The notes under the pieces: model-generated | Database searches by the model: none | What the model saw: the letters and a program-made list of their open reading frames with translations, nothing else | Told to the model about the DNA's origin: nothing | Translations under genes and position numbers: made by a program | Part shown: piece after piece, positions 3,776 through 61,419 of the stretch | Numbering within the stretch: the first letter of the stretch is position 1 | Layout: every line of letters starts with the position of its first letter | DNA from: a virus | Direction: 5' to 3' (one strand) | Length of the DNA stretch: 64,000 nt | Virus record (IMG/VR): IMGVR_UViG_3300044800_000040 | Location: 1 to 64,000 of that record

Positions 3776-4738
3776 ATGGCCAATACCAACAACCCCGCGA
3801 CCGTCTGGAACTGCCCGAACTACACGGGCGAGCTCTACATGATCGGCGCCAACCAGACCCCCTTCCTGAACATGATCGGCGGTCTCGAGGGCGGGCAGGT
3901 CCGCACCGTCGCCGACTTCCAGTTCCCGATCAGCCAGCCCTGGTCGCTGGAAGCCGCTTCCCAGCCGGCCATCACCGAGACCGCTTCTCAGACCGCGCCC
4001 ACTGCGTGGACCTACGTGCGCGGCCAGGCCGTGAACACCGTCCACATCGTGCAGAAGGCCGTGAAGGTCTCCTACGCCAAGCAGTCCGTGACCGGGCAGA
4101 TCACCGCCGACACCACGACCTACCTCGTGGACGGCACCGAAGTGCAGCCTGTGCAGAACGAGCTCGACTTCCAGGTGACCGCGGCCCTGCGCCAGATCGC
4201 CGTCGACACCGAGCTCACCTTCCTGCGCGGCACCTACGCCCAGGCCACCAGCGCCGGCGTGGCGGCCAAGACCCGCGGCATCTGCACCGCGGCCAGCACC
4301 AACACCGTCGCGGCCTCCAGCGTCCGCCTGTCCAAGAGCCTGATCAACCAGCTCATCCGGACCATGGCCTCCAACGGCGCCCCGTTCCAGAACCCGGTCA
4401 TCTTCTGCAACGCCTTCAACAAGCAGATGCTGACCGACATCTACGCCTACGCCCCGATGGACCGCAACGTGGGCGGCGTCAACATCAAGCAGATCGAGAC
4501 CGACTTCGCCATGATCGGTGTGGTGTACGCGCCGCAGATGCTGACCACCACCCTGCTGGTGGCCGACCTCGCCGTCTGCAAGCCCGTGTTCCTCCCCGTG
4601 CCTGGCAAGGGCGTCCTGTTCTACGAGGAGCTCTCGAAGACGGGTGCCGCGGAGAACGGCCAGATCTACGGCCAGATCGGCCTCGACTACGGCCCGGAGC
4701 AGTACCACGGGACCATCACTGGCCTGCTCGCCTCCTAG
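3776..4738 (+). CDS. Major capsid protein (SU10/DUF5309-like)
   Basis: This 320-residue protein begins MANTNNPATVWNCPNYTGEL. The early 'NY.GEL', 'TPFLNMIGG' near residue 30 and the Ala/Thr/Gln-rich E-loop-like stretch match the SU10-type (DUF5309) HK97-fold capsid proteins. It sits after the scaffold gene with a strong AAGGAG site. Its very strong bias to C-ending codons suggests high expression. It should form the icosahedral shell. Confidence 0.85.
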   Translation: MANTNNPATVWNCPNYTGELYMIGANQTPFLNMIGGLEGGQVRTVADFQFPISQPWSLEAASQPAITETASQTAPTAWTYVRGQAVNTVHIVQKAVKVSYAKQSVTGQITADTTTYLVDGTEVQPVQNELDFQVTAALRQIAVDTELTFLRGTYAQATSAGVAAKTRGICTAASTNTVAASSVRLSKSLINQLIRTMASNGAPFQNPVIFCNAFNKQMLTDIYAYAPMDRNVGGVNIKQIETDFAMIGVVYAPQMLTTTLLVADLAVCKPVFLPVPGKGVLFYEELSKTGAAENGQIYGQIGLDYGPEQYHGTITGLLAS

Positions 4739-5252: not shown

Positions 5253-5549
5253 ATGACCACTTTCTACCAGACTGAAGGCAAGGCCACTGTGGTGTGGGAC
5301 GCGGAGCAGGATTGCGCGCTGTGCGAGTTCGCGAACCGTCAGCTCGAGACGGACGACCCCAGGGTGATCGCCAAGCTGGAAGAGCTGGGCTACCCCAAGC
5401 AGGGCCAGCCGCTGAACTACTCCGACGCGGAGCAGATGGCGCAGATCGACCAGATCAACGACACGGGCGACAGCGGAGCCTCCCCCCAGGAGATGGCCGA
5501 GAAGGCTGCCGCCCCTTTGGCCAAGCCCACGCGCCGCGCCAAGAAGTAG
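5253..5549 (+). CDS. Hypothetical virion-region protein
   Basis: This 98-residue protein has GGAGG before its ATG. The first half contains a short Cys pair (CALC) and a segment resembling a small head-tail joining domain; the end is Ala/Lys/Arg-rich. I do not recognise the family. Its stop TAG overlaps the GTG start of the next gene, so the two are translationally coupled. Confidence 0.55.
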   Translation: MTTFYQTEGKATVVWDAEQDCALCEFANRQLETDDPRVIAKLEELGYPKQGQPLNYSDAEQMAQIDQINDTGDSGASPQEMAEKAAAPLAKPTRRAKK

Positions 5550-39127: not shown

Positions 39128-41095
39128 CTAGCCGCAGACCACCGCATAACAGGACAGGACGAGGCCGGCCCGGCCGCTGGCGTAGTAGGGCTCCTTGAAG
39201 CACTCCAGCACCAGGGCGGCGTGGGGGTTGTCCCCCTTGATCAGCACGCTGGTGAAGTAGCCGAGCACCGAGCGGCGGATGGACTCCTCGTCCTGGTCTG
39301 CCAGGCCACGTAGGATGGTGGCGATGGGTGCCCAGGTCAGCTTGCCCTTGCCCATGAGCGCACGACACAGCTCGATGGTGGCAGACAGGTCAGCCGCCGC
39401 CTTGTCCACCATCTTGACCTGATCCGCAGGGGAGAGGTCGATGAGCGCCTCGAGGATGGACAGGGCGAGCCTGGCACTGCCCACGGCATTGCGTGCGATG
39501 AGCTCAACCACTTCTTCCGACACCTTGGCCTTCTCGGCACGGCATACCCGGTTGACCAGGGCAATGAGCTTGGCTTCGGTAAGGCTGCTCACCTCGTAGG
39601 TTGTGAGCCGGGTCTTGACCGTCGGCAGCAGCTTCTGCGGCTCGGTCGTCGCCATGAGCACGAACACATGACCCGGAGGATGCTCCAGCCCTTTCAGCAA
39701 GGCATTCTGGGCGTCATTGGTGAGCTTGTGGCAGTTGTGTACCAACACCCCACCTGCGAAGTAGCTGGGGTGCCCATCGATCTCGAGGTCATGGTATTCT
39801 ACGAAGCCGCGACGAATTTCATCACTTGTGAAATCACTCGGGCCAAGTCCTGCATCACCTCCTGATTCGTAAAGCGCAACACCACCCACCCGAACGAGTG
39901 CAGGAGCTCCGTCTTTTTCGTATCCAGCAGTGAATTCCGCCTCGACCTGTGCCCACGTCCGTCCACTTCTACGGCAATTTTCAACACAGAATTTGCGATG
40001 TCCACCTTGTAGCTGTTCGGGCACCCCGGTGCTTTCCCCGTCGGGATCACCACTTCCATCGGCCAACCAAGTGCCGTCGCCAGCAGGCGTTGAGGTTCTG
40101 TTGTCTTCCCGTTCCCTCCCCGCGCCCCCTTCCATATGCGAAGGGAGCCCTTGGCTGTCTTGGTCGCACGGGCCTTCTCCAATGTGATGGGGTTGGCCGA
40201 CGGGTTGTCTCGCTGCATGCGCTGACTGTGCGCCTGTCTCTCCGCAGCCCCCTCTGGGGTCTCCATCAGAAACCGCTTCCGACTGATGGAAATCTTTGCC
40301 GCAACTTGCGCGTTGTGCACCTTGGCACGGACTTCCGGAAGTGCCATCCGTCTCACCGCTGCACATGACCTGGAGCATGTCTGCTGATTGTACTTCTCCT
40401 GTCGGTTCGGAAAGAACGGCATCGGTGTACTGCATACTGGGCACGGTCTCGTCGTTGTCATTAGGAACCTCCGCAAGCATCGCTGGTGAGCTTGTGCGGT
40501 CCACATTATGACAATTCATGGGGTATAACAAGTCCCCCTCACGAAGATCACCAGCGGGCACCCACCCTCGCGTGGTGCGGAACAGGTGCTCCCGAGAGCA
40601 GCGGATGTCCCCTTGGTCAGTATGCACCCGCGCTGTGCGCTCCAAGGGCACCTTGTTGACAAAGTGGTTGAGCACTGTGCGGAATCCCTGCATGGATTGC
40701 ACAAGTTCGCCGGGCTGGATGTCTTGAATGGGTCGCACCCCGCCCAGGCACACGACAGGTGTGTCGGCCGCGAAGCACTCGTCCAGGAAGAAGACCCGGC
40801 ACGGCCCGGCCATCGGCTTGAGCCGCATCTGCTGGCGCAGGTCACGGATGGAGTCGATGCCGCGGAAGTCCGCGCTGTCCACTTCCTTGAAGTCCAGCTC
40901 CATGTTGCAGCCCAGTTCGGCGGCGACGATGCGGGCAAGGGTTGTCTTGCCACAGCCCGACGGGCCGAGGAACAACATGGAGTGCGGGATGTTCTCCCGG
41001 TCACGGGCCAGGACGTTGCGCAGGGACTCGATCACCTGGGGGTTACCAAGCATCTCGTCCAGGCTTTGCGGGCGGTGTTTATTGTACAGCGACAT
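39128..41095 (-). CDS. Clamp loader ATPase interrupted by an intein
   Basis: This 655-residue precursor has Walker A 'GPSGCGKTT' near residue 45 and 'FFLDE' at 102-106 directly followed by the intein (107-454), then 'CHKLTNDAQNALLKGLEHP', the rest of the Walker B/sensor region, 'MATTEPQKLL' and the C-terminal collar. The spliced product of 307 residues matches phage replication factor C-like clamp loader subunits (T4 gp44). It loads the sliding clamp encoded at 43986. Confidence 0.9.
   Translation of the reverse strand: MSLYNKHRPQSLDEMLGNPQVIESLRNVLARDRENIPHSMLFLGPSGCGKTTLARIVAAELGCNMELDFKEVDSADFRGIDSIRDLRQQMRLKPMAGPCRVFFLDECFAADTPVVCLGGVRPIQDIQPGELVQSMQGFRTVLNHFVNKVPLERTARVHTDQGDIRCSREHLFRTTRGWVPAGDLREGDLLYPMNCHNVDRTSSPAMLAEVPNDNDETVPSMQYTDAVLSEPTGEVQSADMLQVMCSGETDGTSGSPCQGAQRASCGKDFHQSEAVSDGDPRGGCGETGAQSAHAARQPVGQPHHIGEGPCDQDSQGLPSHMEGGAGREREDNRTSTPAGDGTWLADGSGDPDGESTGVPEQLQGGHRKFCVENCRRSGRTWAQVEAEFTAGYEKDGAPALVRVGGVALYESGGDAGLGPSDFTSDEIRRGFVEYHDLEIDGHPSYFAGGVLVHNCHKLTNDAQNALLKGLEHPPGHVFVLMATTEPQKLLPTVKTRLTTYEVSSLTEAKLIALVNRVCRAEKAKVSEEVVELIARNAVGSARLALSILEALIDLSPADQVKMVDKAAADLSATIELCRALMGKGKLTWAPIATILRGLADQDEESIRRSVLGYFTSVLIKGDNPHAALVLECFKEPYYASGRAGLVLSCYAVVCG
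39734..40777 (-). mobile_element. Intein in the clamp loader, inserted at DE/CH
   Basis: The 348-residue intein starts with Cys in 'CFAADTPVVC', has a B-block-like 'CSREHLFRTTRGWVPAGDL' near its residue 70 and ends 'GHPSYFAGGVLVHN' before +1 Cys. Between about its residues 105 and 325 the frame is low in hydrophobic order and matches no intein endonuclease; it is the shadow of the nuclease gene in another frame. The insertion splits the Walker B motif between Glu and Cys. Confidence 0.92.
39799..40461 (-). CDS. EDxHD-type homing endonuclease overprinted on the intein
   Basis: This 220-residue protein starts at ATG 40461 with GGAGG 7 bases upstream and is read in a different frame from the intein around it. 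It has a zinc finger (CPVC, then CSRSC near residues 8-36), a basic middle, and a Vsr-like core: 'VLKIAVEVDGRGHRSRRN' near 160 followed by 'KKTELLHSFGWVVLRF'. The Glu-Asp-x-His-Asp-like residues match the nuclease family found in fractured split-intein genes of phages. It should spread the intein by cutting intein-free alleles. Confidence 0.85.
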   Translation of the reverse strand: MTTTRPCPVCSTPMPFFPNRQEKYNQQTCSRSCAAVRRMALPEVRAKVHNAQVAAKISISRKRFLMETPEGAAERQAHSQRMQRDNPSANPITLEKARATKTAKGSLRIWKGARGGNGKTTEPQRLLATALGWPMEVVIPTGKAPGCPNSYKVDIANSVLKIAVEVDGRGHRSRRNSLLDTKKTELLHSFGWVVLRFTNQEVMQDLARVISQVMKFVAAS

Positions 41096-41098
41096 GAA

Positions 41099-43786
41099 TC
41101 ACTCCATGATGTTGTGGCCGCACTTGGGGCAGCCGAAGACCTTTTTCTTGGTGACCTTGTCGAAGCCCTTGCGCATGAATGCACTGCCGCAGGGGCACTG
41201 CTTGGCTACCAGCTCCTTGAGGTTGTACCAGGGCTCGTCGACCAGGGTGCATTCAACCTCGATCTCCAGGGGCACGATGATCCACTTCCACTCGGCGACA
41301 AGCTCCTTGGTCATTATACGCCGGCAGGCGTTGACGACCATGTCCAGCTCATCGGGGTCGATGCTCATGACAATGGAGTCGTGGATCTGGCCGATGGGAA
41401 ACGACTTCCACTTCTCCTTGCGGGCAAGCTCGGTGATTCTGGCGAACGACCAGAGCAGGCAGTGGAACGCGCTCCCTTGCACGGGGTAATTGATGGCGTC
41501 GTTCTTCATCATGAGCCCGCCACACTGGAAGCCGGTCAAGGTCTTGAAGTAGCCGCGCTTGCTGTATGCCTTGAGATGGTCCTCCTTCCACTGCTGGTAG
41601 ACCGGGAAGCGTTCGTACCAGAAGTGCCGCTCCACCTTCTCGATGTGCTTGGCGAAGGTGTCCTGATTGCGGATGCCAACCGAGGCCAGGTGCTCGCGCA
41701 GAGGGATGCCGTCCGCGGTCTCCTCGTGGATGCCGTCGGCCCAGAGCCCCTTGGCACAAGCCTTCCACCAGTCGCCGTAGAACTGGGGGAACACGAACTT
41801 GTTCTTTGCTGCCTGGCGCAGCGGCTTGCTGACTTGCTTCTCCTTGAGCTTGTAACACTCGGCCGCCATGTCCCGGTGCATGTCCGTCGAGTCGTCGAAG
41901 ATGTAGGTGAGCATGGTCGGGTCTTCGTGGTAGCACGCGGCAACACGCACCTCGACGCCGGAGTAGTCCAGCTCCATCATGATGTGCCCAGGGTGCGGCA
42001 GGATGGCCCGGCGAGTGATCTTCTGGCTTTCCGGGTCACGCTTGGGCACGTTCTGGAAGTTGGGGTTGGAGGAGCTGCTGCGGTAGGTCACCACCGTGTG
42101 CAGGTTGAAGAACGGGTGCATGTAGCCGTCGACCGTCTCCCGCACCCAACCACCCAGGTACGTGCCCCGGATCTTGTCCAGCTTGCGGTACTCGAGCAGG
42201 TCGTCCACGATGGGGATGTTCATGCTGCGCAGGGAGTCCGCATCAACCGAGGGCTTGCCGCTGGCTGTCTTCTTTGCGATCTCCACCCCCAGGTCTTCCA
42301 CAATGACCTTGGCGAGCTGGTCGTCCGAGTCGAGGTTGTAGTTCGCCCCGTACCTGGCACGTAGCCCCTTGCCGAGCTTGGAGTCCATCACGGTGGCCTT
42401 GAGGTTCTTGCAGCGCCTGTCCAGATGGGAGAGCTGGCGGTGGCAGTAGTCCATGTCCATGCGCAGCCCTTTGACCTCGGCGTCGACCAGGGCAATCGCC
42501 CCGTCGTGCAGCAGGGTGTACGCTGGCATCAGCTTGCGCCGGGCCATCTCCTCCTTCTGCTTGAGCATGAGCCGGTGCTGCACCAGGGCATCCGTGCCGC
42601 CATACTTGAGCAGGGCGTCGATGGGTGCCTGGTGGATGCGGTTCATGGAGTTGGCGTTCTTGCGGTCCTTGCTCTCCAGGTACTTGCTGATCTGGGTCGA
42701 GTAGTCTGCCTGGCCGAAGTTGACATACGACTGGAACTTGAGGCCGTGTACTCCCTGGCGGTTGTCCAGGACGTGCGCTGCCAGCATGGAGCACCAATCC
42801 CAGGACTGCACTCTCTGGCGCAAGGCAACGATCGACCACAGCTGCTCGAACTTGAGGCCATGCGCCGACTTGCGCAGACCCTCGTCCGCCAGCATGACCC
42901 GCATGGCCGTCTGCACTTCCTTGTCGTGCATGGTGAAGGCTACGGCATGACCTGGGTCCTGGCATACCGATGCAGTGAAGATGCGGTGCCCCTCCGCTTG
43001 AGGTTTGCGTCCAGTTGTCTCCCAGTCAAAGGAGACGACGTTGTCGCGCCTCTTGGGCAGACTTCGCAGGTAGTTGATGACTTGCTTGGGCTCCCACAAG
43101 ATCTCAACCCCATCGGTGGGGTCTTCCCATGCGGGCAGGGGCTGGTCGACCAGGGTCAGCGCCGCCTTGAGGTCTTGCTTCCAGATCGTCCAGATGGCCT
43201 CGAGGTTCTCCATGCGCATGATGTAGCTGGGGTGGTAGGTCGGGCACACCCAAGCGCCGTATGTGTGCTCCGGGATGTGCCAGCCGCGCCACTTGCCAAT
43301 ACCCCCGGCACTGCGCTCGCTGTCGTCCTCCTCGTCCTCGAGGTAGCGGGGCTCGAGGATGGACTGCACCGCCACGTTGCCCAGGGGAATGATCAGCGAG
43401 GGCTTGTAGCGTTCGATGGCTTCCAGTACCCGGGGGCGGCAGCACTCGATCTCGATGTCCTCGGGGGTTCTGTTCTCTGGCGGCCGGCAGTTCACTGCGT
43501 TGGTCTTCCAGCAGTCCCGGTCGAGATCGATGTCCAGCTCGGCCAGGGTGTCGCGCAGGGTCTGGCCTGCCTTGCCCACCAGTTGGGTGTTGCGCACGTC
43601 CTCGGTGCGCCCTGGTGCCTCGGCTATGATCAGGATGCCCTTGCGCCCTTTGCCAGTTGGCTCCATGCGTGGAGAGCGGCAGGTCTTCCAAAGCCCGCAC
43701 CCGTCACAACCCAGGGCACGGGGGCTGCCCTTGGCACGGGCCTTGGAGATGACCGTGGTGACTTCGGATGCCTTAAAGAAGGCCAT
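41099..43786 (-). CDS. Uracil-DNA glycosylase-DNA polymerase A fusion with zinc ribbon
   Basis: This 895-residue protein has three parts. Residues 1-215 are a family 4-like uracil-DNA glycosylase: CDGCGLWKTC, 'IAEAPGRTEDVRNTQLVGKA' near 52, 'NAVNCRPPENRTP' near 95 and 'PTYHPSY' near 180. Residues 245-430 are a 3'-5' exonuclease with 'VSFDWETTG' near 252. Residues 470-850 are a family A polymerase: motif A 'MELDYSGVEVR' near 602, motif B 'RQAAKNKFVFPQFYG' near 655, motif C 'IHDSIVMSI' near 800 with Ser where Glu is usual. A zinc ribbon (CPCG...CPKCG) ends it. Confidence 0.9.
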   Translation of the reverse strand: MAFFKASEVTTVISKARAKGSPRALGCDGCGLWKTCRSPRMEPTGKGRKGILIIAEAPGRTEDVRNTQLVGKAGQTLRDTLAELDIDLDRDCWKTNAVNCRPPENRTPEDIEIECCRPRVLEAIERYKPSLIIPLGNVAVQSILEPRYLEDEEDDSERSAGGIGKWRGWHIPEHTYGAWVCPTYHPSYIMRMENLEAIWTIWKQDLKAALTLVDQPLPAWEDPTDGVEILWEPKQVINYLRSLPKRRDNVVSFDWETTGRKPQAEGHRIFTASVCQDPGHAVAFTMHDKEVQTAMRVMLADEGLRKSAHGLKFEQLWSIVALRQRVQSWDWCSMLAAHVLDNRQGVHGLKFQSYVNFGQADYSTQISKYLESKDRKNANSMNRIHQAPIDALLKYGGTDALVQHRLMLKQKEEMARRKLMPAYTLLHDGAIALVDAEVKGLRMDMDYCHRQLSHLDRRCKNLKATVMDSKLGKGLRARYGANYNLDSDDQLAKVIVEDLGVEIAKKTASGKPSVDADSLRSMNIPIVDDLLEYRKLDKIRGTYLGGWVRETVDGYMHPFFNLHTVVTYRSSSSNPNFQNVPKRDPESQKITRRAILPHPGHIMMELDYSGVEVRVAACYHEDPTMLTYIFDDSTDMHRDMAAECYKLKEKQVSKPLRQAAKNKFVFPQFYGDWWKACAKGLWADGIHEETADGIPLREHLASVGIRNQDTFAKHIEKVERHFWYERFPVYQQWKEDHLKAYSKRGYFKTLTGFQCGGLMMKNDAINYPVQGSAFHCLLWSFARITELARKEKWKSFPIGQIHDSIVMSIDPDELDMVVNACRRIMTKELVAEWKWIIVPLEIEVECTLVDEPWYNLKELVAKQCPCGSAFMRKGFDKVTKKKVFGCPKCGHNIME

Positions 43787-46750: not shown

Positions 46751-48523
46751 CTACTTGCCGCAGAGCGCCATGAGTTCGGCGCGGGCGCTGGAGCCCTTGA
46801 AGGTGTCCTCAAGGAACACGCCCTTCAGCGAGCTGTAGCCCATCACCGAGTGCTGCTTCTCAACGCCCCGGGCGGTCATGCACAAGTGCTTGGCCTCGAT
46901 GATGCAGGCGGCACCCTTGGGCTGGAGGTGCGTCATGAGCGCCTCGGTGACCTGCTCGGCAATGCGCTCCTGCACCTGGAGCCGGCGAGCGTAGACCTCG
47001 AGGATGCGGGCCAGCTTGCTGACTCCGATCACCTTGCCGTCGGGGATGTAGGCGATGGTGGCGTGCCCGAAGAACGGGATCATGTGGTGCTCGCAGTTGT
47101 GGACGACAATGCCGTTCGCCACGAAGTTCTGGTGCCCTGGCACTTCCATGCACCACACGTCTTCGGTGTAGTTGAGCTCCTCAACTCCGAGTACCTTGTG
47201 ATTCGGTACGCGCTGCTCCTTCCAACTGCGCTTGACGGACTCGGACCGCTTCTTGCACATTGCTTCCCGCTTGTCCGGGTCAGCCATCATCTTTGCCAGG
47301 CCGGCCCACTGCGCGGCATCGAACGCTTCCCGCTCCTGCGTCGTCATCCTCGCCCAACGCTCGGCCTCGCGTGCCCCACGCCCGTCCTCTTGCGCGTGCA
47401 AGCGGGAGTGAGCACTCGGGGACAGGATGGACAGATTGCTCGGGTCATTGTTCGCCGGGTTGCCGTCGAGATGGTGGACGTGCTCATGCTGGCGCAGCTC
47501 TCTGCCGAGCATGGCCGCCATGATCTTCCGGTGCTCCGCAACCAGCTTGCCGTCCTTGTACTGAATGTGGCTCCTGGGCTTGTCCGCGTGCATGATGATC
47601 CCACGGAGCAGGGCAACCACCGATTCGCCGGGAAGCAGGTCCGCCGCCGCCACCCACCCGCGCTTGTATGTCAAGAAGCGGTGGTTGGGGGTGCAGATGA
47701 CAGTATCCTTATCGGTGTACACCCGCACCAGCTTGGCGTCGCGCTGGGTGATCCTCGGGTTCTGGCAGCGCACGAGGTCGAACCGCTGGGTGTCCTCGTT
47801 CCAACTGTACACCCAGTCTCCGTCTGCAAGGCGACTGATGGGCACACGGCCCTTTGGGGTTTCGATGAAGGTGGAGCCTACAAGGCACGTGGAGTAGAAC
47901 TCCACGTCCTTGAGGTAGACCATGCCGCCGCTGGCCTTCTCGTTGAAGACCTTGAACAGCTCCTCCACGTCGGAGTGGTAGCCTTCGAAGAGCTTGCCGT
48001 ACGACTTGACCACCCTGGCCGGGGTCTCCAGCAAGCCCTCGCGGTTGGGGTCCTCGCCGATGTACTCGAGGATGCGGACGATGTTGTCCTCCGGCCCGGT
48101 CTCGCCCTTCATGGTCTCCCACCAGAACTCGACCCAGGTGTCCAGGGTGAACAGGCCGGCTTCGATCATGTAGTTGCGCTGCACCGGGGTGAAGTCAGAG
48201 TTGTTCGGCTGGGCGGAGCTGTGCTTCTTGTACGTCAGCGCCGCGAAGGGGAAGCCGAAGAACCGCTCCCTGGTCGCCCCGGTGTCACAGATGTCGTCGA
48301 CCACCAGGACCTCGGGGTCCGGCCCGGCGGGCAGGTCGGTGCGGATGGGCAGGTTCAGCAGGTTGGAGAGGATGATGGCCGGGTACAGGCCACCACGGGG
48401 CACGGGGTAGATGCTGCGCAGCATGCTGCCAGGGGGGAGGAACTGGCACTGCACGCGGATGTGCTTGGCAAGCTCACGGCAGAGCTGTTCCACAGTAGAG
48501 TGGTCGAGGACAACGCGGGGCAT
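46751..48523 (-). CDS. folE: Phosphoribosyltransferase-GTP cyclohydrolase I fusion with intein
   Basis: This 590-residue precursor starts after AAGGAG. Residues 1-140 are a purine phosphoribosyltransferase-like domain with 'PVPRGGLYPA' near 40 and the PRPP loop 'VLVVDDICDTGAT' near 72, ending 'TWVEFWWE'. Residues from 145 are GTP cyclohydrolase I: 'GEDPNREGLLETPARVVKSY' near 157, then the intein (213-476), then 'CEHHMIPFFGHATIAYIPDG' with the zinc Cys and His, and later 'EAKHLCMTARGV' with the second zinc Cys. FolE makes the first intermediate of preQ0 synthesis; the PRTase may salvage guanine. Confidence 0.92.
   Translation of the reverse strand: MPRVVLDHSTVEQLCRELAKHIRVQCQFLPPGSMLRSIYPVPRGGLYPAIILSNLLNLPIRTDLPAGPDPEVLVVDDICDTGATRERFFGFPFAALTYKKHSSAQPNNSDFTPVQRNYMIEAGLFTLDTWVEFWWETMKGETGPEDNIVRILEYIGEDPNREGLLETPARVVKSYGKLFEGYHSDVEELFKVFNEKASGGMVYLKDVEFYSTCLVGSTFIETPKGRVPISRLADGDWVYSWNEDTQRFDLVRCQNPRITQRDAKLVRVYTDKDTVICTPNHRFLTYKRGWVAAADLLPGESVVALLRGIIMHADKPRSHIQYKDGKLVAEHRKIMAAMLGRELRQHEHVHHLDGNPANNDPSNLSILSPSAHSRLHAQEDGRGAREAERWARMTTQEREAFDAAQWAGLAKMMADPDKREAMCKKRSESVKRSWKEQRVPNHKVLGVEELNYTEDVWCMEVPGHQNFVANGIVVHNCEHHMIPFFGHATIAYIPDGKVIGVSKLARILEVYARRLQVQERIAEQVTEALMTHLQPKGAACIIEAKHLCMTARGVEKQHSVMGYSSLKGVFLEDTFKGSSARAELMALCGK
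47096..47887 (-). mobile_element. Intein with in-frame HNH endonuclease in folE
   Basis: The 264-residue intein runs from Cys in 'CLVGSTFIETPKG' to 'GHQNFVANGIVVHN' before the FolE zinc Cys (+1). Block B is 'CTPNHRFLTYKRGWVAAADL'. The middle holds an HNH nuclease in the same frame: 'HEHVHHLDGNPANNDPSNL' then 'SPSAHSRLH', followed by basic helices. It interrupts FolE at the catalytic zinc site, so no activity is possible before splicing. Confidence 0.9.
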
Positions 48524-48525
48524 GT

Positions 48526-49311
48526 TTACTCCTTGGTGTGGTCGCCACAAACGACACGGCGTCCGCCCGGCAGGTTGGGGTCGTCAGGGCCACCGACGAG
48601 GATGGTGTGCTCCGCGGTTAGCGTATTGTGCGAGATGTGGGGCAGCGGGTCGCGTCTCCCAGCCTTGGCGAAGGCCTCGATGCGTTCGACGCAGGAGCCG
48701 CACTTTCCGCAAGAGGTGGGCTGGTCTTTGTAGCAGGTGCGGGTCAGCTCGTAGGGCACATTCAGCAGGGTGCCCATGATGGCGATGTCACCCTTGTCCA
48801 TGCCCAGGAAGGGAGCCAGGATCTCCACCCGGGAGCCGGTGCCCAGGAACAGGGCGGTGTCCATCGCCTTGATGAACTCGGGCCGGCAGTCCTCGTAGAT
48901 GGCGTGATCACCCGCATGGACACCCAGGGCGATGTACGGGGCGCCCTTGCTCCAGGCCAGGCCCGCCATGAACGAGCTGAAGATGATGTTGCGTGCGGGC
49001 ACGACGGTCGCGCTCATGCTGGCGTCGGTGTAGTGCCCCTCGGGGATGGCCGGGCCGTCGCCCATGAGCGCCGACTTGAAGCCGATGAAGGCATCGGTCA
49101 GGTCGATCAGAGTGCGCTGCAGGCCGTAGTGGACGCAGAGCTTGTCGGCGGCGGCGCTCTCGTACTGGTTGTGCTTGCTGCCGTAGATGAAAGAGATGGG
49201 GATGGGCTCGCAACCCTTGTCAATCAGATGGGCGAGCAGGGTGGCACTGTCCATGCCACCGCTGACGGCCACAACGACCTTGGTGCCTGGGACGAACTGC
49301 GGTGTGATCAT
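48526..49311 (-). CDS. queC: QueC, 7-cyano-7-deazaguanine synthase
   Basis: This 261-residue enzyme has the PP-loop 'VVAVSGGMDSATLLAHL' near residue 13 and a C-terminal zinc cluster (TCYKDQPTSCGKCGSCVERI) near 210. It turns 7-carboxy-7-deazaguanine, ATP and ammonia into preQ0. There is no N-terminal amidotransferase domain, which argues against the archaeosine-type G+ base. Its last codons (AAG GAG TAA) form the ribosome-binding site of folE. Confidence 0.92.
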   Translation of the reverse strand: MITPQFVPGTKVVVAVSGGMDSATLLAHLIDKGCEPIPISFIYGSKHNQYESAAADKLCVHYGLQRTLIDLTDAFIGFKSALMGDGPAIPEGHYTDASMSATVVPARNIIFSSFMAGLAWSKGAPYIALGVHAGDHAIYEDCRPEFIKAMDTALFLGTGSRVEILAPFLGMDKGDIAIMGTLLNVPYELTRTCYKDQPTSCGKCGSCVERIEAFAKAGRRDPLPHISHNTLTAEHTILVGGPDDPNLPGGRRVVCGDHTKE

Positions 49312-58267: not shown

Positions 58268-61200
58268 TCATACTCCCCTCTTTCGGCCGATACAAGAGAC
58301 GAGCTCTGCGAGGACCCCTCCTGTGGTATTCCCAACCCCATCCATATTGGACACACCGTCCAGCGCCATGCCAATCACTTGCGCCTTGTTGTGGAGAAGG
58401 GTTGTGATGTCGTCGTCGAGGGTGTCTTGGGCCACAAGGCAGTACGAGCTGACGCTCTGCGACTCCTGTCCAATTCGGAGAACGCGGTCTTCCGCTTGGA
58501 GGAGTTCCGATGGGGTCCAAGGAAACTCCACGAAGCAGGTCGAGTCCGCCGCGGTCAGGGTGATTGCCACACCAGCCGCCTTGAGCCCGCCGATGAAGAT
58601 CCGGCAGGTCGGGTCCTCCTGGAAGCGGTCGATGAACGCCTGCTTCATCATCGGCGGGGTGCGACCGTCCAGGCGCACAGGGTTGAACTCTCCCAGAGCT
58701 TCGAAGAGCCCGTCCAGGATCTCATGGTGGTGTGCGAACACAACCAGCTTCTTGCCGCTGTCCATGTAGTCCTTGATCCACTCGATGGCTGCCTCGAGCT
58801 TGGCCTTGGCAGACCAGAGCTTCAACTGGGTGATCTGCGCCAGCACCTGCCCAGGCTCCTTCTTGCCCGGTCTGGCGTTCTCCACCGCGAACTCCGCCTC
58901 GAGCTTGGCATACGCCTTCAGTGCGGCCCGGGACAGTTCCAGGGGCACTACGCTGCGCTGCTTGATGGGCAGGTCCGGCATCACGTCCACCTTGAGGCGG
59001 CGGATCATGACGGTCTTGGTCAGCAGGGCATGCAGCTCGTCCATGTTGGAAGCGCCGTTGAAGTTCCAGCCGTAGTCGGTGCGCTTGGCGTCGCAGAACC
59101 GCTGGGTGTAATCCCAGAAGCTCGGGAACACGTCGGGGCGCAGCATGTGCAGCACAGTCCAGAACTCGATGGGGCGGTTGATGATGGGGGTGCCGGAGGT
59201 GGCCACGATGTGCCGGCAACCTGTCGCCAGGCCGGGGTGCTTGATCTTCACCTTCTGCCAGGTGGCCTTGTCCATGATCTCTTCTTCGTACCCGACGATG
59301 GCCCGGGTGCGAGCAGCCTTGGGGTTCTTGATCGCATGGCAGTTGTGAACCAGAACTTCGTTCGCGTAGTAACTTGGGTGTCCGCTGACCTGGAGATTAT
59401 ACACTGTCGCACCGTCTCCAGGACCTTCTCCGGGGTCTGTACAACCTCCCAATTCCAGAATCTCAACACGCACCACCCGAGGCTGGTCAGTACCTCTGTT
59501 TTCTTGGTGTCCAGCTTCTGTGCGCGCTTGGTCTGATGTCCCCGACCATCTATCTCGATTGCAATTTTCAGTCGGGGATGGGCAAGATCCACTTTGTAGC
59601 AATGTGGGCACTCCGGACGATTGTTTGTGGGAATAGCCACCTCCGCTGACCAATGAAGTAGGCATGCCAGAAGTTTCTGTGGTTCTGTGAGTATCCCATT
59701 CCCTCCCCGCAGGCCCTTCCACGCCCGCAGGGTCCCGTTCCGTTCCTTGGTATCTCGCATCTTCTGAATGGTGGCAGGGGAGTGCATGGGGTTCTTCTTG
59801 GTCATGCGTATTGCCGCGTCTGGTCGGGGAGCACCTTTGAGTGCTTGTGACAACTTCCTGTTGCGTTCTGGTGAGAACACCCTTTTGCGAATTTCCGGCT
59901 GGGACATCCTCCACTTCGCGGAGCAAGATGTTCCGCAAAAGCGTCTCGGCCGATTCTTTTTCTGTGCCGCAAGGAATGTCGCCCCGCACCACTCGCATGT
60001 CATTTCCGTCATTTTCATTTATTGTTCCCTCCTTGCGGGACACTATACCAAGAATCTTCTCAGCAGGAAACAATAATCTTCCGGTGAGGTTTTCTGCGGC
60101 CACCCATCCAGATTCCGTAAAGATGGGGTGGTTGGGAGTGCATTCAAAGCTGGTACCATCGTCGAGTACAACACGGACAAGCGTGCTCACTTTTTTCGAG
60201 AACACCTTCTGTACCTGTCCCATTCCGAACGCATTGTACACCCAGTCCCCCACCTCTATTTCCTCGATGGGGCGTGTGCCGTGTTCTGTGCGAATGGGGG
60301 TGCCAGCGGGGAAGCACTCGTCCAAGGCAATGACCTCGGGTGTGCCAACCTGGGCGACGATCTCGCACCACCAGTCGGAGAGGATGTCGTAGTTGACGAT
60401 GATGATCACGCCCTTGCTCTCTCCCTTGGCCTTGCGCACGGTGTGGTCGAAGATGTTGTCGTTCTTGCCGGGCTTGCCACGCAGGGTGATGACGTGCGGG
60501 TCGGACATCCACTGCAGGACATGGCGCTCCCAGGACGGCTTCGCCGTGGCAGGGCACACGATCACCGCGGGGCGAAGCTCCGGGTGCAGTTGCAGGTAGC
60601 CGATGATCTGGACGGTCTTGCCGAGACCCATGTCGTCGGCGAGCAGGGCGTTGCCGCCCATCTGGTCGAGGAAGGACACGCCCACGGTCTGGAAGGGGCG
60701 CAGCGTCTTCTGGAGGCCGGGGATCGCCAGGTCGGCGTTCTCACCCTTGGTGAAGGAGGCGAACCAGTCCTGCAGCGCCTTGCCCCGGAGTTCGAAGCCC
60801 AGGTTGCGCAGACCCTCGACGGCCTGGAACGACTGGGGCAGCGTCCAGAGCTTGCGGTCGGGGCACCAGCGGCGGCCCGGCAGATTCTTCACGTCGGCGA
60901 CGGTCTGGGGGTTGTAGGGGAAGCTCACCAGAAGCGTATTGCCCTCGAGGGTGACGAACTTGGTCGGGCTCTGGCTGCTGGCTGCACTCGCCTGGGGCAC
61001 GGCCACAGGGGGCACGGGGCGCTTGCCGTTGGGTCGGGGAGCCACCTCGGCGTGCATCAGCTGCTTGGCATACTTGTGCAGCTTGGGCTTGATGAAGGAC
61101 ATCTGCCGCTCGGTGAGGAAGCCCTTGTCCTTGTACCACTCGGCAATGCTGGTCAGGATGTCAGCGTCGATCATGTTGAAGCCAGCGCCGTTCTGGTGGG

Positions 61201-61333
61201 AGGTCGTCTGCATGTACTTCTCGTCCTCCTCCTGGCGATGGTAGAGGGTCATGAGCGCGCCGATGGCGAACTCGTCGTTGTTCTTGATCTGCTCGATGAT
61301 GCGCGCGACTTGTTCTTGCTGTTCGGCCTTCAT
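58268..61333 (-). CDS. HARP-SNF2 (SMARCAL1-like) helicase with intein
   Basis: This 1021-residue precursor starts at ATG 61333 after AAGGAG. A HARP-like domain (FPYNPQTVADVKNLPGRRWC near residue 138, then KLWTLP) precedes SNF2 motifs: 'LLADDMGLGKTVQI' near 230, 'LDE' then the intein (340-664), then 'CHAIKNPKAAR', 'VATSGTPIINRP' and the C-terminal 'QAEDRVLRIGQ' near 950. The spliced protein has 696 residues. SMARCAL1-type enzymes anneal DNA at stalled forks. Confidence 0.9.
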   Translation of the reverse strand: MKAEQQEQVARIIEQIKNNDEFAIGALMTLYHRQEEDEKYMQTTSHQNGAGFNMIDADILTSIAEWYKDKGFLTERQMSFIKPKLHKYAKQLMHAEVAPRPNGKRPVPPVAVPQASAASSQSPTKFVTLEGNTLLVSFPYNPQTVADVKNLPGRRWCPDRKLWTLPQSFQAVEGLRNLGFELRGKALQDWFASFTKGENADLAIPGLQKTLRPFQTVGVSFLDQMGGNALLADDMGLGKTVQIIGYLQLHPELRPAVIVCPATAKPSWERHVLQWMSDPHVITLRGKPGKNDNIFDHTVRKAKGESKGVIIIVNYDILSDWWCEIVAQVGTPEVIALDECFPAGTPIRTEHGTRPIEEIEVGDWVYNAFGMGQVQKVFSKKVSTLVRVVLDDGTSFECTPNHPIFTESGWVAAENLTGRLLFPAEKILGIVSRKEGTINENDGNDMRVVRGDIPCGTEKESAETLLRNILLREVEDVPAGNSQKGVLTRTQQEVVTSTQRCSPTRRGNTHDQEEPHALPCHHSEDARYQGTERDPAGVEGPAGREWDTHRTTETSGMPTSLVSGGGYSHKQSSGVPTLLQSGSCPSPTENCNRDRWSGTSDQARTEAGHQENRGTDQPRVVRVEILELGGCTDPGEGPGDGATVYNLQVSGHPSYYANEVLVHNCHAIKNPKAARTRAIVGYEEEIMDKATWQKVKIKHPGLATGCRHIVATSGTPIINRPIEFWTVLHMLRPDVFPSFWDYTQRFCDAKRTDYGWNFNGASNMDELHALLTKTVMIRRLKVDVMPDLPIKQRSVVPLELSRAALKAYAKLEAEFAVENARPGKKEPGQVLAQITQLKLWSAKAKLEAAIEWIKDYMDSGKKLVVFAHHHEILDGLFEALGEFNPVRLDGRTPPMMKQAFIDRFQEDPTCRIFIGGLKAAGVAITLTAADSTCFVEFPWTPSELLQAEDRVLRIGQESQSVSSYCLVAQDTLDDDITTLLHNKAQVIGMALDGVSNMDGVGNTTGGVLAELVSCIGRKRGV
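59248..60018 (-). CDS. EDxHD-type homing endonuclease overprinted on the helicase intein
   Basis: This 256-residue protein starts at ATG 60018, with AAGGAGG upstream (60034-60028), in another frame from the intein. It has CEWC and CGTSC zinc Cys near residues 8-32, 'GTLRAWKGLRGGNGILTEPQ' near 95 and the core 'LKIAIEIDGRGHQTKRAQ' near 150, then 'KKTEVLTSLGWCVLRF'. It is clearly related to the nuclease at 39799. Its tail runs 94 bases past the intein into host-gene sequence. Confidence 0.85.
   Translation of the reverse strand: MKMTEMTCEWCGATFLAAQKKNRPRRFCGTSCSAKWRMSQPEIRKRVFSPERNRKLSQALKGAPRPDAAIRMTKKNPMHSPATIQKMRDTKERNGTLRAWKGLRGGNGILTEPQKLLACLLHWSAEVAIPTNNRPECPHCYKVDLAHPRLKIAIEIDGRGHQTKRAQKLDTKKTEVLTSLGWCVLRFWNWEVVQTPEKVLETVRQCIISRSADTQVTTRTKFWFTTAMRSRTPRLLAPGPSSGTKKRSWTRPPGRR
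59342..60316 (-). mobile_element. Intein in the SNF2 helicase, inserted at DE/CH
   Basis: The 325-residue intein runs from Cys in 'CFPAGTPIRTEHG' to 'GHPSYYANEVLVHN' before +1 Cys. Block B is 'CTPNHPIFTESGWVAAENL'. From about its residue 100 to 300 the frame is a low-order shadow of the nuclease gene in another frame. The host motif is the helicase motif II Asp-Glu, followed by Cys-His, the same site type as in the clamp loader. Confidence 0.92.
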
Positions 61334-61359
61334 GTCTTGCTCCTTGGTTGATGTTGGGT

Positions 61360-61419
61360 GCCTCATCAGGCCAGGAGACCCAAGCTCCTAGCGACAGGGG
61401 GCGCACCCCCTGTTTCGGC
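61360..61419 (-). ncRNA. Type II hammerhead ribozyme 1
   Basis: Minus strand, 5' to 3': GCC, GAAA, stem III CAGGGGG-UGCG-CCCCCUG, UC at the cleavage site (between 61393 and 61392), stem I GCUAGGAG / CUCCUGGC (8 bp), core CUGAUGA, then GGC to close a 3-bp stem II. All core bases of the hammerhead are present. It begins directly after the stop codon of the SpoT-like gene, 59 bases before the helicase start. Confidence 0.88.

Follow-up and report, generated by a model that had tools for sequence, protein, structure and literature searches.

A probable class of mobile phage inteins carrying the homing endonuclease as an overlapping gene in the +1 frame

The stretch of DNA analysed here (the window) comprises the first 64,000 nucleotides of the viral record IMGVR_UViG_3300044800_000040. 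On its minus strand, positions 39128-41095 form a single continuous open reading frame (ORF) of 655 amino acids plus stop, the exteins of which (40778-41095 and 39128-39733) correspond to a phage clamp loader (PHROG 5846, E 1e-55). Between the Walker B residues DE and CH lies an intein of 348 residues (39734-40777, minus), which starts with Cys1 at 40777, closes with His-Asn (Asn348, ending at 39734) and is followed by Cys at the +1 position, the terminal residues expected of inteins. These ends are well conserved: among 93 unique loci, the first residue is Cys in 92, the last is Asn in all and the +1 residue is Cys or Ser in all, while the penultimate His is replaced by Ser in 15 and by Gly in one. 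Profile matches locate an N-terminal Hint half, IntN, at 40505-40777 (E 4e-29) and a C-terminal half, IntC, at 39734-39895 (E 4e-16), both minus. The AlphaFold model of the intein is confident at residues 1 to ~90 and, slightly less so at first, at residues 273-348; it places the protein among Hint folds, with a match to gp41-1 of Z 18.8 over 122 residues and similar matches to other inteins. Gp41-1 is likewise the closest solved intein by profile. Residues 110-270 (39968-40450, minus), at which pLDDT is below 50 almost throughout, are predicted to form a disordered linker, and it is here that the intein frame runs through the codons of a second gene.

That gene occupies 39799-40461 on the same strand in the +1 frame relative to the intein. 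It encodes a 220-residue nuclease of the EDxHD/DUF559 type (DUF559, E 4.3e-13) with an N-terminal zinc finger and four conserved Cys. Its stop codon lies at 39799-39801 and a Shine-Dalgarno (SD) motif, GGAGGT, at 40467-40472 (minus), five bases 5' of the ATG. The structure model (mean pLDDT 93.4) ends in a strand at residues 193-198 and helices at 199-204 and 206-219. Its top Foldseek match is I-Bth0305I (Z 11.4), and Vsr is matched with Z 10.2; E165, D167, H171 and D180, invariant in 48 aligned nucleases, occupy the active site of this Vsr-like fold. When the nuclease codons were shuffled synonymously, the intein frame acquired a mean of 4.1 stops and remained open in just 0.9% of 2000 shuffles; the natural sequence has none. 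A preliminary description of this DNA had proposed an unbroken clamp-loader frame across a 348-residue intein, stop-free yet disordered over the nuclease, together with a zinc-finger EDxHD nuclease read from 40461 to 39799 in another frame behind its own GGAGG; each of these features is confirmed by the analyses above, with the disorder covering most of the nuclease.

The two genes share more than a linker. In one frame, 39802-39895 (minus) codes for the nuclease C-terminus; in the other, the same DNA codes for a Hint strand and helix within IntC. The nuclease sequence 'LGWKVLRFTNKEV' and the intein sequence 'RVESIEIYKQG' (locus L001) derive from identical bases, a sharing that can also be written as 'GWKVLRFTN' and 'RVESIEIYK'. 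Intein strand 295-303 and helix 318-323 fall within nuclease codons in the model, according to which the final ~30 codons of the nuclease also encode part of the Hint fold. At intein residues 274-288, part of the model's confidence may stem from sequence conservation for which the nuclease is responsible; the mini-intein L003, described below, has no counterpart of these residues.

We searched the complete record of this phage (68,690 bases) for further intein-like places and found two besides the clamp loader. The first is a 325-residue intein (59342-60316, minus) at the Walker B motif of an SNF2-family helicase gene, itself a continuous ORF (58268-61366, minus; SNF2-rel_dom, E 9e-28). It, too, is overprinted: a nuclease ORF lies at +1 to the intein (59248-60018, domain 59395-60018, minus; DUF559, E 5e-14), with the SD motif AAGGAGG at 60028-60034 (minus) 5' of its ATG. 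The domain of this second nuclease ends without a stop, and its frame continues through IntC into the C-extein to a stop at 59248; reading on through 59248-59394 (minus) would add a foreign tail to the protein. The other lies in a GTP cyclohydrolase I ORF (46751-48550), where the intein (47096-47887, minus) carries an in-frame HNH_3 domain (E 1.8e-7). The same phage thus offers an internal contrast, one intein of canonical in-frame layout alongside two overprinted ones.

Assessing how widespread the overprinted layout is required a census. Three nuclease alignments, each covering a different part of the family, served to scan viral contigs (the best 80 of 325, 251 and 303 relatives being kept), and an alignment scan of bacterial and archaeal genomes added 45 loci. 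A profile of IntN only was too variable for scanning; profiles of the nuclease, IntN and IntC were applied to the loci with limits of E 1e-5 and 117 residues. The limits removed many weak matches of the genome alignment scan, which were ordinary short DUF559 proteins without an intein (an earlier tally of 29 'free' matches among 139 also counted L091 and a second match in L074). The same limits removed the L003 fossil, and the final census also leaves aside the window copies L012-L014 and a clamp-loader scan that was counted apart (L141-L220). Once duplicates among its 268 nuclease matches of 117 residues or more were merged, 180 unique nucleases remained, two of them from the window. Every scan started from overprinted members and retained no more than its 80 best loci, and may therefore have overlooked different layouts in more distant relatives; within this scope, 174 of the 180 unique nucleases are overprinted at +1 within one continuous intein ORF, none lies in the intein frame and none at any other offset. 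The remainder comprises two nucleases interrupted by contig ends at the same offset, one split by a single stop (L058) and three with no intein detected.

The 174 overprinted nucleases are hosted by 83 ResIII-type helicases, 49 SNF2-type helicases and 42 clamp loaders. Their N-exteins end in DE in 151 cases and in DExH in 15, and the host genes are nearly all interrupted at Walker B. A tblastn search with the nuclease returned 40 phage records. We analysed eight (Pseudomonas phage MR14, Corynebacterium phage phi673, and Vibrio phages 1.088.O, CP-T1, 1.194.O, 159E43-1b, 104E43.1 and K391), and in all eight the nuclease is at +1 to the helicase/intein frame. In each of the 40 records the region of the nuclease is annotated solely as part of one CDS, labelled helicase-like, coiled-coil, P-loop or hypothetical; because only the host CDS is annotated, an overprinted element is taken for a long gene with a disordered segment inside it, and gene annotation overlooks the arrangement. 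A scan of bacterial and archaeal genome contigs with the single window protein gave no matches, and plasmid searches gave only short DUF559 matches to the nuclease, as well as helicase matches. Judged by these sequence comparisons, the overprinted layout is real, conserved and widespread.

Taken alone, the window loci would be only moderately significant as regards stop depletion (for the helicase-intein nuclease, shuffles gave a mean of 4.7 intein-frame stops and none in 0.25%). Across the unique intein-associated nucleases of the census, the aligned regions contain no intein-frame stop, against ~1575 expected from synonymous shuffles, and we therefore consider the intein frame to be translated through. 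The third frame of the same set holds 2826 stops against 2606 expected. An earlier set of 94 unique nuclease cores with slightly wider limits, which includes the L003 fossil fragment, had one intein-frame stop (in L058) against 894 expected; there, too, stops in the third frame were no fewer than expected (1577 against 1448). The shuffles rule out that the frame is open by chance in GC-rich DNA, the effect being strongest in AT-rich relatives.

The phase of substitutions tells the two frames apart. In ten pairs of relatives, which are not independent of one another, changes at host codon position 3 account for 60% of the total upstream of the nuclease (N-extein plus IntN) and for 62% downstream of it (C-extein plus the part of IntC not shared with the nuclease). 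Inside the nuclease, 57% fall at host position 1, equivalent to nuclease position 3, and 20% at host position 3. Between the nucleases of L008 and L010, 35 differing bases alter four of 252 nuclease residues and 29 residues in the intein frame. It is therefore the nuclease frame that holds its protein sequence, the intein frame being mostly a stop-free linker. In the zone common to the nuclease and IntC, pooled changes are fewer (88 at 946 sites, against 964 at 5534 elsewhere in the nuclease). A non-coding nuclease frame, which the preliminary description had named as a possible undoing of its proposal, is ruled out by the substitution phase, the homologues giving a strong coding signal.

How the nuclease might be produced is suggested by what precedes it. 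Its start lies near the end of IntN and is an ATG in 88 of 94 loci. An SD motif of at least five bases precedes a start candidate in 46 of the 94, compared with 3.0% of 1885 host-frame ATGs, although the fair chance level is higher than 3.0% because each locus had a mean of 2.35 candidates, of which the best was taken; an SD motif of four bases is absent from 22 loci and a start candidate from one. In L077, L062 and L048 the motif AAGGAG sits within the last bases of the matched IntN, ~15 bases before the ATG. Programmed ribosomal frameshifting after IntN would yield the nuclease with no internal start, as a fusion to the N-extein and IntN. Such slippage would agree with a nuclease frame that is always +1 to the host frame and with the 37 of 93 loci in which the chosen start follows the upstream stop at a distance of more than ten open codons. 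In 31 of the 93, however, the upstream stop is at most four codons from the start and leaves little room to slip, and the places concerned bear ATG codons and SD motifs instead. We regard frameshifting as improbable, and infer, as the likeliest reading, that the nuclease is expressed independently, as the preliminary description had suggested.

Nuclease and intein appear to have a common history. A tree of 92 nucleases requires four changes of host type and separates the clamp-loader elements from all others by a single branch (SH-aLRT 96); seven such changes are needed in the intein tree. Within host types, nuclease and intein distances correlate (rho 0.69 for clamp loaders, 0.52 for SNF2 and 0.68 for ResIII), exceeding all 300 permutations in each case. 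The two thus seem to have travelled largely together, on trees that are both weakly resolved.

The clamp-loader scan for IntC junctions, which was blind to the nuclease, gives a view of other stages. Of the best 80 loci kept, 54 have no intein match, 18 are overprinted at +1, four are mini-inteins, three are partial and one, L157, has its intein elsewhere, the Walker B of its clamp loader being uninterrupted; a motif check found the Walker B sequence uninterrupted in 52 of the 80. The four mini-inteins, of 148-188 residues, can all still be read in the +1 frame as the C-terminus of the nuclease. L142, on the same contig as L003, retains 'ILGWKVLRYTNEEIMTDTSRVLLEIKKEIKDL' and the stop codon, L145 has a stop inside the nuclease relic, and in L160 Gly replaces the catalytic Glu. 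Apparently empty, presumably active and decayed alleles coexist, which fits the stages of a homing cycle. Such relics also raise the question of whether the window nuclease is itself a decaying remnant, open only because the intein needs the DNA they have in common, a suggestion to which mini-inteins that keep only the end of the nuclease, one with a stop and one without its catalytic Glu, lend some colour. The window copy, however, is full length and has all conserved catalytic residues as well as its SD motif, and the nuclease frame is under strong purifying selection in the relatives compared; decay is accordingly a very improbable account of the window locus.

Comparison with known systems helps to place these elements. 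Fractured genes, which Dassa et al. are said to have described in 2009, reportedly contain split inteins whose halves, encoded by separate genes and splicing in trans, flank a free-standing nuclease of the Vsr-like (EDxHD) type; gp41-1 presumably comes from a locus of this type. The kinship to fractured phage genes that the preliminary description had suggested is borne out by gp41-1 as the closest profile and I-Bth0305I as the top structural match, and both systems place an EDxHD-type nuclease between intein halves in phage genes. Unlike in fractured genes, IntN and IntC here belong to one ORF with the nuclease overlapping them at +1 (174 of 180), L058 being the one exception in the census. 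It could be argued from the match to the split intein gp41-1, and from the single stop between IntN and the nuclease domain of L058, that sequencing indels mask either a fractured gene (split intein) or an in-frame nuclease. As a general account, however, this hazard, which the preliminary description had itself pointed out for split genes, is rejected and hardly conceivable, because the continuous frame and identical +1 offset recur in 174 unique sequences, GenBank phages included.

An overlapping gene that is genuinely encoded in the +1 frame also sets these elements apart from canonical bifunctional inteins. The two share the Hint fold, the Cys1, Asn and +1 Cys residues and a nuclease between the Hint halves; here, however, the nuclease is outside the intein protein, being at +1 in the window and in 174 of 180 cases and in frame in none of the 180. 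The nuclease has the fold and E-D-x-H-D residues of I-Bth0305I and Vsr-like nucleases. Unlike I-Bth0305I, which is named as a mobile intron protein, only three of the 180 occur without a detected intein.

In the literature searched by title and abstract, no out-of-frame nuclease inside an intein was found, the nearest report being that on ShiLan-type insertions (Arsenault et al. 2025, PMC11855218); one 2025 preprint may overlap, and priority is uncertain. In ShiLan-type insertions a hidden HNH nuclease lies out of frame; it starts with GTG, no ribosome-binding site was detectable, no self-splicing domain was found, and homing has been proposed (PMC11855218). These insertions resemble the present elements in being open in the host frame while carrying the nuclease in another. 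The present elements differ in having a Hint intein as splicing domain, a nuclease of the DUF559/Vsr-like (EDxHD) kind and SD motifs.

We consider it very probable that the window element is a mobile intein with its homing endonuclease as a separate overlapping gene, splicing, internal initiation, cleavage and homing all being predicted steps. Ribosomes from the start of the host gene would read one continuous frame into a precursor, in which the Hint halves (residues 1 to ~90 and ~293 to 348) would fold around the long disordered linker; splicing in cis would then remove the intein and restore the ATPase interrupted at Walker B. Other ribosomes, entering at the internal SD site just behind IntN, would read the +1 frame and make the free-standing zinc-finger EDxHD nuclease, which would cut the intein-less host allele, whereupon repair would copy the element in. 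On this scheme the nuclease frame would keep its protein sequence and the intein frame, over most of the nuclease, would need only to avoid stops. The frames are plausibly locked at a fixed offset because both proteins fold from the same DNA over the last ~30 codons. The overprinted elements as a whole are thus predicted to work like homing inteins, and they probably constitute a distinct and widespread class, defined by an overlapping nuclease gene locked at +1, ~30 dual-coding codons and a nuclease independent of splicing.

If this is correct, inteins would have a third means of carrying a nuclease, in addition to fusing it in frame or placing it between split halves. The nuclease would no longer depend on the folding and splicing of the intein, but the two would have to share part of their DNA permanently. 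The 174 unique sequences also constitute a large natural set of overlapping genes for measuring two-frame constraint, in which one stretch of codons specifies two folded elements, and the Hint halves are candidates for new split inteins. The preliminary description had seen the arrangement as a plausible intermediate between in-frame and fractured layouts. As a passing state this is not borne out: the layout is a stable arrangement, because 174 of 180 unique nucleases have it across three host gene families. Overprinted inteins could nonetheless be natural precursors of the split inteins of fractured genes via a single stop, the suggested route being the gain of a stop and a start codon by a precursor whose nuclease is already produced separately.

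Some individual loci deserve mention. L058 is the only one with a stop in the intein frame (3991-3993), located between IntN and the nuclease domain, with IntC continuing in the same frame; the stop is possibly a first step towards a fractured gene, or possibly a sequencing error. Two of the nucleases with no intein detected (L291:2992-3633 and L363:1513-2148) lie directly upstream of, and slightly overlap, a helicase-like gene that has no insert, and may represent a free-standing state. In the window, positions 41099-43786 (minus) encode, in a single ORF, a family A DNA polymerase with an N-terminal domain of the uracil-DNA-glycosylase superfamily.
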